From: Aquimarina muelleri DSM 19832
GTDB taxonomy: Bacteria > Bacteroidota > Bacteroidia > Flavobacteriales > Flavobacteriaceae
Assembly: GCF_000430665.1 (NCBI RefSeq)
Contig: NZ_AUML01000003.1
Location: forward strand, 1 to 64,000
Length of the DNA: 64,000 bases
Direction of reading: 5' to 3'
In this document: positions 405 to 53,957 of the stretch, piece after piece
How positions within the stretch are numbered: the first letter of the stretch is position 1
Layout of the letters: each line of letters begins with the position of its first letter
Notes under the pieces: model-generated
Seen by the model: the letters and a program-made list of their open reading frames with translations, nothing else
The model's database searches: none
What the model was told of the DNA's origin: nothing
Made by a program: the position numbers and the translations under genes

Positions 405-2351
405 ATGATCAAGATTACGTTACCAGATGGTTCAATTAGGAACTACGACAATATTGTTACAGCAATGGATGTTGCAAAAGATATTAGTGAGGGATTTGCT
501 AGAAATGTAATTTCTGCGAAGTTTAATGAAACTACTATTGAGACCTCTACTGAATTGACTACTGACGGTACTCTTGTTCTATTTACGTGGAAGGATGATG
601 AAGGTAAAAATGCTTTTAGACACTCTACTTCTCATGTTTTGGCTCAAGCTCTTGAAGAATTATACCCTGGAGTTAAATTATCTATTGGACCTGCTATTGA
701 CAATGGTTTTTATTACGATGTAGACTTAGGGGAAAAAATGATTTCTGAAAAAGATTTTAAGTCTATAGAAGATAAAATGCTTGAGATCGCAAGAGGTAAG
801 CATGAATTTAAAATGAGATCCGTATCTAAAGATGATGCCTTAAATAAATACAAAAAAGAAGGTAATGAATATAAGGTTGAACTAATCGAAAATCTTGAAG
901 ACGGCACTATTTCTTTTTGCGATCATGATACTTTTACCGACTTATGCCGTGGAGGACACATACCAAACACTGGCCTTATAAAAGCTGTAAAGATCATGAG
1001 TGTTGCAGGAGCATATTGGAGAGGAGATGAAAAGAACAAACAATTAACTCGAGTTTATGGGACTTCTTTTCCTAAGCAAAAAGATTTAAAAGAGTATTTA
1101 GAATTACTTGAAGAGGCTAAAAAACGTGATCATAGAAAATTAGGCAAAGAACTAGAACTTTTTACTTTTTCTCAAAGAGTTGGTCAAGGTTTACCTCTTT
1201 GGCTCCCAAAAGGTGCTGCCTTACGAGATCGCTTAGAACAGTTTCTGAAAAAAGCACAAAAAAAGGCGGGGTATGAAATGGTAATAACTCCACACATAGG
1301 TCAAAAAGAATTATATGTTACTTCTGGTCATTATGCTAAATATGGTGAAGATAGTTTCCAGCCGATCAATACTCCTAATGAAGGGGAAGAATTTTTACTA
1401 AAACCTATGAACTGCCCTCATCATTGCGAGATTTATAATAGCGGTCCTTGGTCCTATCGAGATTTACCTAAACGATATGCGGAATTTGGTACTGTATACC
1501 GATATGAACAAAGTGGTGAGCTTCATGGGTTAACTAGAGTAAGAGGTTTTACTCAGGATGATGCACACATTTTTTGCACACCAGATCAACTAGATCAAGA
1601 ATTCAAGAAAGTAATAGACTTAGTTTTATATGTTTTTGGATCTTTAGGGTTTGAAAACTTTACTGCTCAAGTATCTGTAAGAGATTTAGAAAACCCTGAC
1701 AAGTATATAGGAGATGTAGAAAACTGGGAAAAAGCAGAAAATGCTATTATAAACGCGGCAAAAGACAAGGGTCTTAACTATGTAATTGAAAGCGGCGAAG
1801 CAGCTTTTTATGGCCCTAAACTTGACTTTATGGTTAAAGATGCCTTAGGAAGAAGCTGGCAATTAGGAACTATACAAGTAGATTATAATTTACCAGAGCG
1901 TTTTGATTTAACTTATAAAGGTAGCGACAACGAATCACATCGACCTATTATGATCCATAGAGCTCCTTTTGGTAGTATGGAACGATTTATTGCTATTCTA
2001 TTAGAGCACACTGGAGGTAATTTCCCATTGTGGTTAATGCCAGAACAGGCTATTATACTATCTATCAGTGAGAAATATGAAAAATACTCCGAAAAAGTTT
2101 TAAATTTGTTAGAAAATGACGAAATTCGCGCCCTTGTAGATAATAGAAATGAAACTATAGGAAAAAAGATTCGAGAAGCAGAAATGAATAAATTTCCGTA
2201 TATTATCATTATAGGAGAGCAAGAAGAAAACAACAACACCATCTCTGTTCGCAAACATGGAGGCGAAGATCTAGGTACTATACCTATTGATGAGTTTTCT
2301 AAAATGGTAAGTAAAGAGATTAATAGTACATTAAAACCGTTTAACGGATAG
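405..2351 (+). CDS. thrS: Threonine--tRNA ligase
   Basis: Class II aminoacyl-tRNA synthetase that charges tRNA-Thr in the cytoplasm. The 648 residues follow the bacterial ThrRS layout: TGS domain (about 1-60), the second editing/additional domain with the CRGGH-type motif (about 180), catalytic core (about 265-540) and C-terminal HGTP anticodon-binding domain (about 545-640). Visible landmarks are MNCPHH with the zinc-ligand Cys near 335, RYEQSG in motif 2 and [11 protein letters not shown] in motif 3 near 518, which holds a zinc-ligand His. Length is normal for the family. It heads the translation cluster with infC, rpmI and rplT, a very common order in bacteria, and has its own promoter just upstream. 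Confidence 0.98.
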
Positions 2352-3730: not shown

Positions 3731-4142
3731 ATATCTACTTAGTAAAAAACACTTCATCGTAAAAACTACATTTTAACGACTACTAATAAAGATAATCGCT
3801 TTTTTTATTATTTTTTAAAAACAATAACCATGGAAAGAAATAGTTATCTACCCATATCTATAAAATTCTTTACTAGTCATAAAACATTATCATAAATTGC
3901 AAAAACTCTAGTACGATTCTATGATTAATCGTTTAATTTTGAAACACATTATTATAAATAAAATAGAGTTTACAAAATAACCCTCGTTAGATGATAAAGA
4001 AACGGTTTAAAACAATAATTCTCTCTAAAAAAACTACGTTTCAGAGAAATCAAGAAAAACATGAAATTATAGATCTAATTGATTTTTTTATGGAAAAAAG
4101 TTAATAGCTCTTCTAATCCATCTAATTTAAAAACCAAAATAA
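3731..4142. other. Non-coding / decayed region upstream of the Hpt pseudogene
   Basis: About 410 bp with stops in all frames. The only short frame with a start is an ATG at 3991 that gives about 37 residues (MIKKRFKTIILSKK..., ending MEKS) and stops at 4104; it has no recognisable domain and may be a remnant of a gene upstream of the Hpt relic. Nothing else recognised. Confidence 0.4.
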
Positions 4143-4740
4143 AAATTTTTAAAGCCTCTCCCCTTTCTAAAAGAATCAAAAAACTTACTAAAAATATATT
4201 TATCCGTAGAAGAATTTATTACCAGAAAAAGTTTAAACAACGATCATGAAATTATCCGAAGTGTTCTTGATATTTTTATAGAAGAGACTACCAAAGGCTA
4301 TAGTAAATTAGAAGGAGATTTTAAAGAAAATGATATTGATGAAATAGAAGAAATTTCACAAATAGCACATAATACCATTTGTAGTTTGAATTTATTGGAA
4401 AAGAAAATTAATATTTTTTTGTTTCAGTGAAGAAGAAAAGCTTATGCTAGACTCGATCTGGTATTAAGCATAGCAGGGCTACGGTTTATTTTTATTCTGA
4501 TACTGAGGCGGAAAAAACATTTTATTACGGTAAATTCAAATTATAAATGGTATAAGGTCAAATCTAGTTTTAAAACAATTGGGTTTCAAAAAAGAAGCTT
4601 CTGTTTTAGAAAAAATAGAACACCTGGTTAAAAATGAAACAGAATTTAATATCCTATTAAAACATTTTAATAAATTAAATAAACCTTATCCCAAAATCAT
4701 TCAAGAAGTTAAACAATTCATTAAAGATTTATCTTCTTGA
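4143..4740 (+). pseudogene. Hpt (histidine phosphotransfer) domain protein, disrupted by an inserted element and a frameshift
   Basis: The frame opening after the TAA at 4140-4142 gives an Hpt-like helix (EEFITRKSLNN, then VLDIFIEETTKGYSKLEGDF) that runs into IAH at 4370, where a 180-bp inverted-repeat element begins. Removing the element and one copy of a flanking TAA restores AHKVKSSFKTIGF, which is the Hpt phosphorylation motif (AHxLKGS type, phospho-acceptor His). Shortly after, near 4587, the frame must shift by one base to continue as KKEASVLEKIEHLVKNE and reach a TGA at 4738-4740. Hpt modules relay phosphate between histidine kinases and response regulators; this copy is certainly dead. 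It may be the tail of a formerly larger hybrid kinase whose front end is not visible here. Confidence 0.7.
4373..4552. mobile_element. MITE-like element with terminal inverted repeats, copy A
   Basis: A 180-bp segment bounded by 22-bp inverted repeats that match at 20 of 22 positions (outer ends TACCATTT and AAATGGTA) and flanked by a direct TAA on each side (4370-4372 and 4553-4555), consistent with a target-site duplication. Its excision in silico rebuilds an Hpt motif, which proves insertion. It has no open frame of useful length, so it must have been moved by a transposase in trans. A near-identical segment occurs in the opposite orientation at 11554-11720. The internal sequence holds a hairpin around CCAGA/TCTGG (in copy B form). 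The parent IS family is unknown. Confidence 0.75.
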
Positions 4741-51485: not shown

Positions 51486-52259
51486 ATGGATTTTATTCTG
51501 GTAGGTATTGTCGCTTTATTAGGATCAGGATTAACCTTTTTTTCTGGTTTTGGACTAGGCACATTATTGCTTCCTGTATTTGCTTTATTTTTTCCTATAG
51601 ACATTGCGATTGCTTTAACCGCAATAGTACACTTACTTAATAACCTGTTTAAATTAACTCTTGTTGGCAAAAAAGCGGATATTCAAACTATTATTCGTTT
51701 TGGACTACCTGCAATTTTATTTGCTTTTCTAGGAGCATATACGCTTACCAAACTTACTTATTTAGAGCCTGTATACACCTACTCCCTTTTTAACGAAATG
51801 CATGAAATAACGATAATAAAAATATGCATTTCCGTTCTACTTATCTTTTTTTCACTTTTTGATTTAATTCCGAAATTAAAACGATTAGAATTCGATATAA
51901 AATACCTGCCTCTTGGCGGTGCACTTAGTGGTTTTTTTGGAGGATTATCTGGTCATCAGGGAGCTTTGCGAACTGCTTTTTTAATACGAGCAAAACTTAG
52001 CAAAGAAGCTTTTATAGCAACAGGAGTATTCATTGCTTGTTTTATTGATGTTTCTAGACTAGCTGTATATGCAAAAGATCTTTTTTTGTTAGGAGACAAA
52101 CTTAATTATCCAATGCTAATTACTGCTACTCTAATGGCTTTTATAGGCGCATATCTAGGGAATAAGTTTCTTAAAAAAGTAACCATACATACTATTCAAT
52201 TAGTAGTAGGGATTTTATTGATCATTTTTGCTATTCTTCTTGGCATTGGAGTTTTATAA
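51486..52259 (+). CDS. TSUP-family (TauE/SafE) membrane transporter
   Basis: 257 residues with about eight hydrophobic helices and the two TSUP half-repeats: GSGLTFFSGFGLGTLLLPVFALFFPIDIAIALTAIVHLLNNLFK in the first half and GALSGFFGGLSGHQGALRTAFL near 148-168 in the second. Members export sulfite, sulfoacetate and other organosulfur or organic anions. Substrate unknown. It converges with the hypothetical gene ending at 52890 across a 630-bp repeat-rich region. Confidence 0.88.
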   Translation: MDFILVGIVALLGSGLTFFSGFGLGTLLLPVFALFFPIDIAIALTAIVHLLNNLFKLTLVGKKADIQTIIRFGLPAILFAFLGAYTLTKLTYLEPVYTYSLFNEMHEITIIKICISVLLIFFSLFDLIPKLKRLEFDIKYLPLGGALSGFFGGLSGHQGALRTAFLIRAKLSKEAFIATGVFIACFIDVSRLAVYAKDLFLLGDKLNYPMLITATLMAFIGAYLGNKFLKKVTIHTIQLVVGILLIIFAILLGIGVL

Positions 52260-52503: not shown

Positions 52504-52643
52504 CGATATCTGGTCTTCGAATGCCGCATCCCACAATGTATTACCATAAACCCTGAGCTTCGAACATCTCAGCCTGCTATGCGATCCTTATAAAAGGCAC
52601 CTTTAAAGTCCCCCTGCCCTTGATATACTTGCCCCCGGCAGCC

Positions 52644-52864
52644 GGGAAGATACTTTTGATTGCCGGGAAGGGGTACTACACCACCGGGAAAGGGTTTTAT
52701 AGTGCTGGGAGAGTATTATTAACCGCCGGGAAGGGTCTCTGTACTTACGGGAAAGGTAAACATACCTACGGGAAGCATTTTTTATTGCCGGGAAGGGGTT
52801 TTGTATAACCGGGAAAAGGTTCTATATAGCCGGGAACATAAAATAAGCTACGGGAACGGTGAAA
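52644..52864. repeat. Eleven-unit 21-bp array with GGGAA core
   Basis: GGGAA (GGGAG once) occurs at 52644, 52665, 52686, 52707, 52728, 52749, 52770, 52790, 52811, 52832 and 52852: spacing is 21 bp except for two 20-bp steps. Most units end in GCC, ACC or TAC just before the next GGG, so the conserved block is about 8 bases (GCCGGGAA) and the remaining 12-13 are variable, leaning to RGGGTTTTATA. Several variable parts are themselves short dyads (AGGTAAACATACCT, GGTTTTGTATAACC). The 20-bp steps break any reading frame, so coding is unlikely. Function unknown. Confidence 0.85.
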
Positions 52865-52889
52865 AACAACTTCGAACACCCGTCTTCCA

Positions 52890-53957
52890 TCATCCTTCTA
52901 ACAACCGTTTCATATTTACATTTTCATAATTACGGCGTACAAAATCCATTGCTGTCTTTAAAACTTCTCCCATAGATTTACTGCGCCGAAATTTTAAATC
53001 CAAAGTAAAATTATACAAATGTTCTCGTAGTTCTTTTATATTTTCTTTTGTAGAAATAGTATCTGCACACATACATTCGATAAGAACTTCATAACGATCC
53101 CTTGATGTGAGTATACGTTTTGCCAAAATAGAACGCTCCTCTTTTTTATATTGCTCTATAGAACTTGGCTGCAACCTACTCATTACAACTGCAACCATAT
53201 TAAAATTTTCTTTAAAAAACTGTGGCTGATACACTTTCAGTTTTCCTTCAAAACACTGCTGATCAAAATCAATAGCTCTTATTTTATATTCTACATGATC
53301 AAAATCATGAATAGGTATGATCACATAATTATAAGACCTCATATCCCCAAGTAATCGCAATTGACAACGCTCATTAAACTTTACAAATTCTTTAGCTATT
53401 TGGGATTTAGCCTGATCACTAAGATCTGGTAAAAAATCCTTAATAAATATATCTCCTGCAATCCCTGCAATATGTTCTTCTATCAATGTGTTTTTATATA
53501 CCAAAAAATTAATCCTGTTTGGAGAAAACATGTGCTCTAACTCTAATCCATAGATTCGCGAAGCATCTGCTTTTTTTACATAGATATAGGTATAATTGTC
53601 GTTAAGTATATTTCTAACTTTTATTCTAAAAGGTTTAGAATTTCCAAAAGTGCAATAATCTATAGCATCAATATTTAAAAACTCTATAGCATCTTCATTA
53701 CCATCAGAATGCAAAATAGTATATACTTTTTTAAGACTAGACTCTAGCTCAACTCTCTCATGCTCTTCATAATAAACCCGCACCCACAAAGTATCTTCAT
53801 CATTATTATCATACACTACTATAGAACCAGAAAATCGAAGCAGATCATCATAAAACACAGGTATCTTAATTTTACGATTATATTCTTTTAAGTACGCATC
53901 TAATTTATCATTTATAGGATACGTAGGTTTTTTTTTAGACATCAACTTTTCTTCCAT
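52890..53957 (-). CDS. Conserved hypothetical protein
   Basis: 355 residues from the ATG at 53957 (alternatives 53981 TTG and 53942 ATG). Soluble, mixed alpha/beta, without signal peptide or membrane segment. Notable stretches are YPINDKLDAYLKEYNRKIKIPVFYDDLLRF near the start, DTLWVRVYYEEHER, YIYVKKADASRIYGLELEH and a C-terminal helical RRSKSMGEVLKTAMDFVRRNYENVNMKRLL. I do not recognise a named domain. Similar proteins seem to be ordinary chromosomal genes of flavobacteria. It converges with the TSUP gene across the repeat region. Confidence 0.8.
   Translation of the reverse strand: MEEKLMSKKKPTYPINDKLDAYLKEYNRKIKIPVFYDDLLRFSGSIVVYDNNDEDTLWVRVYYEEHERVELESSLKKVYTILHSDGNEDAIEFLNIDAIDYCTFGNSKPFRIKVRNILNDNYTYIYVKKADASRIYGLELEHMFSPNRINFLVYKNTLIEEHIAGIAGDIFIKDFLPDLSDQAKSQIAKEFVKFNERCQLRLLGDMRSYNYVIIPIHDFDHVEYKIRAIDFDQQCFEGKLKVYQPQFFKENFNMVAVVMSRLQPSSIEQYKKEERSILAKRILTSRDRYEVLIECMCADTISTKENIKELREHLYNFTLDLKFRRSKSMGEVLKTAMDFVRRNYENVNMKRLLEG

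Follow-up and report, generated by a model that had tools for sequence, protein, structure and literature searches.

The window analysed here is a 64,000-nucleotide stretch of Aquimarina muelleri DSM 19832 (assembly GCF_000430665.1, contig NZ_AUML01000003.1, positions 1 to 64,000 of the forward strand), in which eleven short cores follow one another at 21-bp steps between two convergent genes. On the reading preferred here, which we hold to be about evenly balanced between right and wrong, this array represents a solo copy of a bipartite repeat element consisting of an orphan gene, PERF, and a 3' array whose cores are predicted sites for the PERF protein, and solo copies of the array have spread. 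The anatomical part of this reading is very probable. The pairing of protein and sites, which we infer, is tentative and falls somewhat short of an even balance.

The array was described by a first-pass annotation made from the letters alone, as eleven units at 21-bp steps in a convergent intergenic region, and this description holds. The same annotation missed the inversion, the leader, the tail, the palindromic start and the linked gene family. A pattern scan places 11 YGGGAR cores between 52643 and 52856, with 8 steps of 21 bp and 2 of 20 bp. The features of the locus are as follows:

51486-52259, + strand: neighbouring TauE/SafE family gene, converging on the array and outside the element
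52557..52577, + strand: copy of a short repeat, GCTTCGAGAGCCTCAGCCCGC-like with 5 mismatches, left of the array
52617..52632, + strand: left-end leader of the array, CCCTTGATATACTTGC
52633..52647, no strand assigned: centre CCCCGGCAGCCGGGA, of the TCCNNNNNNNNNGGA type with C instead of T as its first base
52639..52870, + strand: + arm with 11 YGGGAR cores at 21/20-bp steps
52643, 52664, 52685, 52706, 52727, 52748, 52769, 52789, 52810, 52831 and 52851, + strand: starts of the cores, with steps, in order, of 21, 21, 21, 21, 21, 21, 20, 21, 21 and 20 bp
52832..52864, + strand: tail, made up of GGGAACATAAAATAAGCTAC (a unit of 20 bp) and the final core, GGGAACGGTGAA
52890-53981, - strand: neighbouring 363-aa gene, outside the element, found in 61 of 66 congeneric genomes and without a match in Pfam or NCBIfam

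YGGGAR hexamers occur 22 times on the + strand and 25 times on the - strand of the window (pattern scan of both strands), and no second run of two or more at 20–22 bp is present elsewhere in the window on either strand. The lag-21 identity is highest at the array (0.575; window mean 0.308, s.d. 0.043, in 160-bp windows). The units are divergent, since Tandem Repeats Finder gives only 2.3 copies at this position. A perfect palindrome, CCCGGC-A-GCCGGG (52634-52646), opens the array; it lies inside the centre, and the distance from - core to + core is 11 bp there. The window copy consists of the centre and the + arm only, and begins at its centre. The flanks also belong to the repeat, and homology with A. 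muelleri copy C1 spans 52600-52863. The tail motif recurs in copies C1, C3b, C14 and C15, and in C13 it is found inside the array. By eye, the leader is similar to the stretch behind the PERF stop in linked copies (TAATCCCTTGATATCACTCGCCCC in G304 and CCCTTGCTATTACTAGCCC in A. muelleri C2). Additionally, a weaker GCTTCGAGAGCCTCAGCCCGC-like copy (6 mismatches) is located at 52514, and GCTTCGAGAGCCTCAGCCCGC-like motifs, with mismatches, adjoin arrays C1, C3b, C14 and C15 and the C2 PERF array. These short repeats flank the arrays on one side or on both, all pointing the same way, and might help the arrays to spread through recombination. A known structured RNA was rejected for the window, in which no Rfam family matched at the gathering score; no tRNA was found in the window.

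Nine arrays of the window kind were located in the 4.9-Mb A. muelleri assembly by pattern and DNA searches, namely C3 (the window), C1, C3b (C3:143.6 kb), C12, C13, C14, C15, C17 and C33, and others exist among congeneric genomes, which bears out the expectation of further arrays. All nine are intergenic, with two between convergent, six between tandem and one between divergent genes, and the solo copies occur in both orientations relative to their neighbours. A rule by which the arrays sit at 3'-3' junctions, which the annotation had put forward for checking, was rejected on these counts. Units recur in the same order across several A. muelleri arrays. A leader unit like GATACTTTTGATTGCC and a tail motif, ATAAAATAAG.T.CGGG, are common to six of the nine (window, C1, C3b, C13, C14 and C15), and are lacking in C12, C17 and C33. 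The leader of solo C12, TGCTATTACTAG, equals that of the C2-linked array over 12 bases, and solo C17 and gene-linked C33 share a left flank (by eye). Copies C3b and C15 occupy two loci, neither with the gene, and are identical in 231 of 242 aligned bases, with different sequence outside the array; the length difference between the two amounts to a 21-bp unit and a single base. The array is dispersed without the gene, and a whole 21-bp unit has been gained or lost.

The locus of the 363-aa gene was compared in 30 loci, including that of A. muelleri, with about 4.1 kb covered at each of the 29 loci of relatives. No array of the window kind is present at these 29 loci; the sole run of at least three YGGGAR, three in L361, is a 7-bp microsatellite of G330. 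The junction between the 363-aa gene and TauE measures 23 bp in G319, 0 in G347, 113 in G307 and 871 in G354 (first 700 bp read), and holds no array in any of these four genomes. In most other relatives TauE is not the neighbour of the 363-aa gene. Microsatellite-like tracts of 7 bp (CTGACTC/CTTCTGA) were seen 3' of the 363-aa gene in L361 and L371.

Arrays of this type are coupled to PERF, a 234-aa gene of no assigned function, in the linked copies of which the array follows at most about 250 bp after the stop codon. The label was coined here after the C-terminal motif. Arrays stand shortly 3' of PERF at C33 in A. muelleri and in the congeneric genomes G304, G309, G314, G317, G319, G354 and G355. 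The A. muelleri paralogues comprise the C33-linked gene and those at C2 and C6, which carry arrays of other cores. PERF was found in 29 of 66 congeneric genomes (57 entries, 48 of them full-length without stops) and was not found in the other 37. In a sample of 395 genomes from across the phylum, A. muelleri alone was positive, with none of the 394 others containing the gene, and no copy was detected in viral contigs or in a plasmid collection. Searches of Pfam, NCBIfam, PADLOC, PHROGs and PDB gave no convincing match for the protein (weak hits at E >= 0.005). In several copies (e.g. L299, L307 and L315) a hairpin like CAGTTTCAAAAAATGAAACTG was noticed some tens of bp before the PERF start, and a 7-bp microsatellite-like tract (GATGGTT) follows the gene in L299.

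A pattern of three YGGGAR cores matches 12 of the 66 congeneric genomes. Arrays of the window kind are present in seven (A. muelleri, G304, G309, G314, G317, G319 and G355), and by eye the matches in the remaining five seem unrelated. Many arrays are two-armed, with TCC-type units followed by a 15-bp centre, TCCNNNNNNNNNGGA, and then by GGA-type units, such that NTCCCG cores at 21-bp steps give way to CGGGAR cores at 21-bp steps. The linked array of G314 has a single arm and no centre. In a centre search over 46 PERF 3' regions a good part scored no better than their three shuffles, and the inverted layout is therefore claimed for the named arrays only; a palindrome search in the PERF-linked regions, which had no power, gave scores at shuffle level. 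Complementary arm cores that differ between elements were recognized by eye in L319, L286, L325, L312 and the gene fragment L304, and the cores of the two arms change together (TCCTGTA/TACAGGA in L319, TCCCCGCAG/CTGCGGGGA in L304 and TCCCCGC/GCGGGGA in L286).

The spacing is regular in 19 arrays, where 122 of 137 same-strand steps are exact multiples of 21 and 9 more are 20. The distance from the last - core to the first + core is 11 bp in 10 cases; 14 other - to + spacings are 4, 5, 25 or 32 bp. Since 21 bp correspond to two helical turns and 11 bp to about one, these steps support, without proving, the earlier suggestion that the cores are phased on the helix.

The period is constant despite the change of core. 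It was analysed by autocorrelation (lags 10–59) of the 400 bp 3' of the PERF stop in 46 of the 48 full-length copies, which remained of 49 hits once two fragments (L304 and L306) and L313 (the same gene as L286) were dropped; the full-length copies at G316:C10 and G330:C1 are outside this test. The highest lag is 21 or 42 in 36 of the 46 regions and another in the remaining 10, compared with 3 of 46 regions upstream of PERF, 3 of 46 dinucleotide shuffles and 20 of 126 3' regions of control open frames (Fisher p = 4e-14). The controls, taken from the same loci and 30 further ones, are frames of at least 150 codons from stop to stop on any strand, whether genes or not, and their 16% itself exceeds the 4% to be expected from 2 lags in 50. 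Lack of mutual blastn similarity (E 1e-3) divides the 46 regions into 15 groups, the largest with 24 members. In 13 of these groups at least half of the members have lag 21 or 42 as their highest; the period is absent in two groups of one region each, L291 and L326. Thus, what is conserved is the geometry rather than the sequence, as 13 of 15 unrelated groups retain the period with cores that differ between elements.

The distribution of gene and array among the congeneric genomes was tested twice by Fisher's test, with the G341 match (see below) left out of one. PERF of subfamily I, which was delimited after the hits were seen (best E below 1e-98), is present in all seven genomes with GGGA arrays and in 3 of 59 others (p = 1.5e-7), an association that holds partly by construction because linked arrays count. 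Solo GGGA arrays were found in A. muelleri, G309, G314, G317 and G319, all of them PERF carriers. Unit similarity averages 0.718 within genomes (40 pairs, 36 of them from A. muelleri) and 0.614 between genomes (131 pairs). The solo array nearest to the linked array is that of the same genome in A. muelleri, G314 and G319; the solo of the same genome is tied in G317 and fifth in G309.

A second subtype is defined by the motif GCCGATGGTCGATA, found in 12 of the 66 congeneric genomes. PERF is present in 10 of these 12, compared with 19 of 54 others (p = 0.003). The two without it are G341, in which the match looks like coding sequence, and G348, which has an array without the gene (no PERF at E 1e-5). 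The motif lies 3' of PERF in G307, G316, G321, G332, G334, G360 and G361, and forms apparently solo arrays in G315, G319, G321, G330, G332, G334 and G348. Several of these solo arrays begin with (A)ATCTATTGCTATTACT, which in linked copies (e.g. L324) overlaps the PERF stop. No PERF remnants were found left of solo arrays by tblastn at 0.05 in 22 loci. Local alignment, in which one of 14 solo flanks exceeded its 60 shuffles, placed an apparently decayed PERF 3' end to the left of the solo array L338 (G334:C8; score 52, best of 60 shuffles 47). With this sequence in front of it, at least this solo array may be what remains of a complete element after gene loss.

In the preferred reading, a complete copy would consist of PERF and of short oriented cores, which follow one another at 21-bp steps in an array no more than about 250 bp 3' of the stop codon and which are arranged in many copies as - units, a 15-bp dyad centre and + units. 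The cores are predicted protein-binding sites, which the two turns between cores and the roughly one turn across the centre would hold on one face of the DNA, and the PERF protein of the same subtype is their presumed binder. The solo arrays would have spread as short, non-autonomous, MITE-like elements that still serve as sites; alternatively, they may have been left behind upon loss of the gene. Several observations weigh against this proposal. No DNA-binding domain is detectable in PERF by domain and structure database searches, the protein is not basic (38 K+R vs 40 D+E), and the gene may do no more than take the array with it. Duplication of units can likewise produce exact 21-bp steps; by itself it leaves the agreement of 13 unrelated groups unexplained. 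The array of G348 and the 37 genomes that lack PERF also do not fit easily, nor do the 10 PERF copies with another top lag and the groups L291 and L326, and the hairpin of subtype II described below suits a role in RNA.

In a broader version of the same idea, which is possible and on balance doubtful, the paralogues of PERF, a diverging orphan family, would each be paired with their own inverted, phased array as a protein-and-array system, with protein and core co-evolving, the 21-bp geometry fixed, and the arrays spreading as additional putative binding platforms that organise, mark or silence DNA.

It is rather unlikely that the arrays are instead MITE-like elements with an internal minisatellite, comparable to BrickBuilt, that would be moved by a transposase in trans, vary by slippage, have no function and carry PERF as a passenger. 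The leader, the tail, the intergenic location, the changes in unit number and the dispersal without the gene all agree with such an element, as do the ends of C3b and C15, ACTCTCCAAA and TTTCGAGAGT, which are the inverse of each other in 9 of 10 positions (by eye). However, inspection by eye only revealed neither such inverted ends in the other A. muelleri copies nor a target duplication, and a MITE-like origin leaves the period of 21 in 13 of 15 unrelated groups behind one gene family unexplained.

An RNA element, in which the array would be the 3' UTR of the PERF mRNA with stacked hairpins (a terminator, a stability element or an RNA ligand) and the solo arrays copied terminators, is improbable. 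It draws on subtype II, where a strong hairpin lies directly next to the PERF stop and is followed by a T-rich tract. The covariation of this hairpin is 0.213, compared with 0.154 in shuffles (none of 500 as high) and 0.083–0.108 when slid, and 76.9% vs 72.7% of its cells are paired; two of five measures, the pairs in which both partners changed (33 of 500) and the further pair types (64 of 500), are not beyond shuffles. These values apply to an alignment that was chosen after the hairpin was seen (n = 21; L327, L301, L302, L292 and L328 are without a pattern match, and L335 and L336, with a deletion and different spacing, were left out). When 14 clear arrays are pooled, the complementarity of the arms is also highest in the nested register, a comparison of registers only, in which the assignment of columns to core and spacer is unreliable. 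On the other hand, one-armed arrays (the linked arrays L241 and L285 of G314 and most A. muelleri solos) keep their cores without a pairing partner, the A. muelleri solos are found in both orientations, and a helical spacing of 21 and 11 bp is of no obvious use in RNA. From the earlier proposal that the transcript presents serial small hairpins there remain the palindromic centre and this one covarying hairpin in another subtype; otherwise it fails.

Mobilization of a REPIN-like element by a REP-associated tyrosine transposase (RAYT) is very improbable. The dyad centre, the intergenic dispersal and the species-specific variants recall such elements, and genes within 2 kb of the PERF loci L291, L296 and L321, which presumably resemble REP-associated tyrosine transposases, match one RAYT-like query. 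This query was negative at the other loci examined, the unit is a 21-bp array rather than a REP doublet, and PERF has no transposase match.

A degenerate coding repeat (an AGKGxxT heptapeptide) is barely credible, as the annotation had also judged: 21 bp equal seven codons, a 62-aa ORF spans 52620-52808, long frames stay open on both strands of L241, an array of G314, and in 15 of 46 PERF-linked regions a frame stays open over 210 bp, but stops in all six frames across 52601-52900 and the 20-bp steps break every frame of the window array, the arrays turn round at the centre, and 31 of the 46 regions have no such frame.

Arrays with a similar step occur in other genomes. Three GGGAA at this spacing match in 24 of 299 genomes of the family, and the places listed outside A. 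muelleri, which by eye look like coding repeats, microsatellites, chance triples and other repeats, were rejected. One of these places, L088 in another genus of the family (G252, 1458-1600, reverse strand), holds a seven-unit TGGGAAAG array with exact 21-bp steps in AT-rich intergenic sequence. An open frame lies 5' of it, and a second one, which begins MPKSYAEKIAQVKVLIDG, starts about 70 bp further on. A wider genome scan matched at least 120 stretches, with many 21-bp CGGGAA arrays among the matches listed; no PERF homologue lies beside them in the loci examined. In L137 (5460-6179), L139 (612-1352) and L236 (7073-7750), from Geminisphaera, a Tannerellaceae MAG and one further locus, all picked only for their CGGGAA arrays, another gene family adjoins the array, starting within about 0.5 kb of it and with a C-terminus like RWENTRGEKGPWSPIYS. 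This family is unrelated to PERF by profile comparison and is possibly another gene-array pairing. A 21-bp TCGGGAAG array in L237 (about 4000-4330) seems, by eye, to be bracketed by a long inverted repeat (ATCGTCTTAAAAACAAAACTT), as in a MITE that contains a minisatellite.

It is usually by their sequence that dispersed repeats of bacteria are identified; here the geometry persists and the sequence varies freely, beside one gene family. If PERF binds the array, its 48 full-length copies and about 15 unrelated array types would constitute a natural series for the evolution of DNA-binding specificity, and a search by period rather than by sequence could find such systems elsewhere. A limited search of open-licence PubMed Central papers found no description of the PERF/array pair.

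Two known types of array share the regular spacing. CRISPR arrays have long constant repeats, unique spacers and a leader. The element resembles them in its regularly spaced repeats and its leader; CRISPR was rejected, in agreement with the first-pass annotation, because the core is only 6-8 bp, spacers are common to different arrays and units occur in both orientations. Iteron and partition arrays, the rep and par sites of plasmids, are direct repeats at whole helical turns beside the gene of their binding protein. The PERF arrays are likewise spaced by whole helical turns beside a gene, whose product is a putative binder, but they lie 3' of it, include many solo copies and involve no known rep/par family, and PERF is absent from the plasmid collection.

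BrickBuilt of P. gingivalis is intergenic and dispersed (19 copies in one strain), with imperfect direct repeats of ~20 bp between a leader and a tail; its repeats are also given as 23 nt, with IS5-like terminal inverted repeats and GAGACC ends, its unit number varies between strains, and it is known from P. gingivalis and P. gulae, according to the accessible part of its description (PMC4596501). This 23-nt minisatellite with leader and tail makes the statement that no element of such form had been described too strong. Both are scattered over intergenic regions as copies that have a leader, direct repeats and a tail; in A. muelleri, the leader unit and the tail are present in six of the nine. 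The A. muelleri element differs in its 21-bp steps, inverted arms and 15-bp centre, compared with the 23-nt repeats and GAGACC ends of BrickBuilt, and in combining an orphan gene with arrays of changing sequence and constant period; that part of the BrickBuilt description mentions no linked gene family.

The REPIN/RAYT system (REPtron), as far as the consulted sections of its literature describe it, combines an HUH/Y1 transposase gene with cognate, dispersed palindromic repeats whose variants are specific to genome and gene type (PMC3116915, PMC8266576, PMC8049555). The PERF element appears similar in joining a gene to putatively cognate, dispersed palindromic repeats with variants by genome and gene type. 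Unlike the system set out in those sections, PERF has no Y1/HUH relative in Pfam, NCBIfam, PHROGs or PDB, and its multi-unit 21-bp arrays, some of them one-armed, replace the single inverted REP pair. BrickBuilt and REPIN/RAYT are the closest known systems, and the element fails a defining feature of each.
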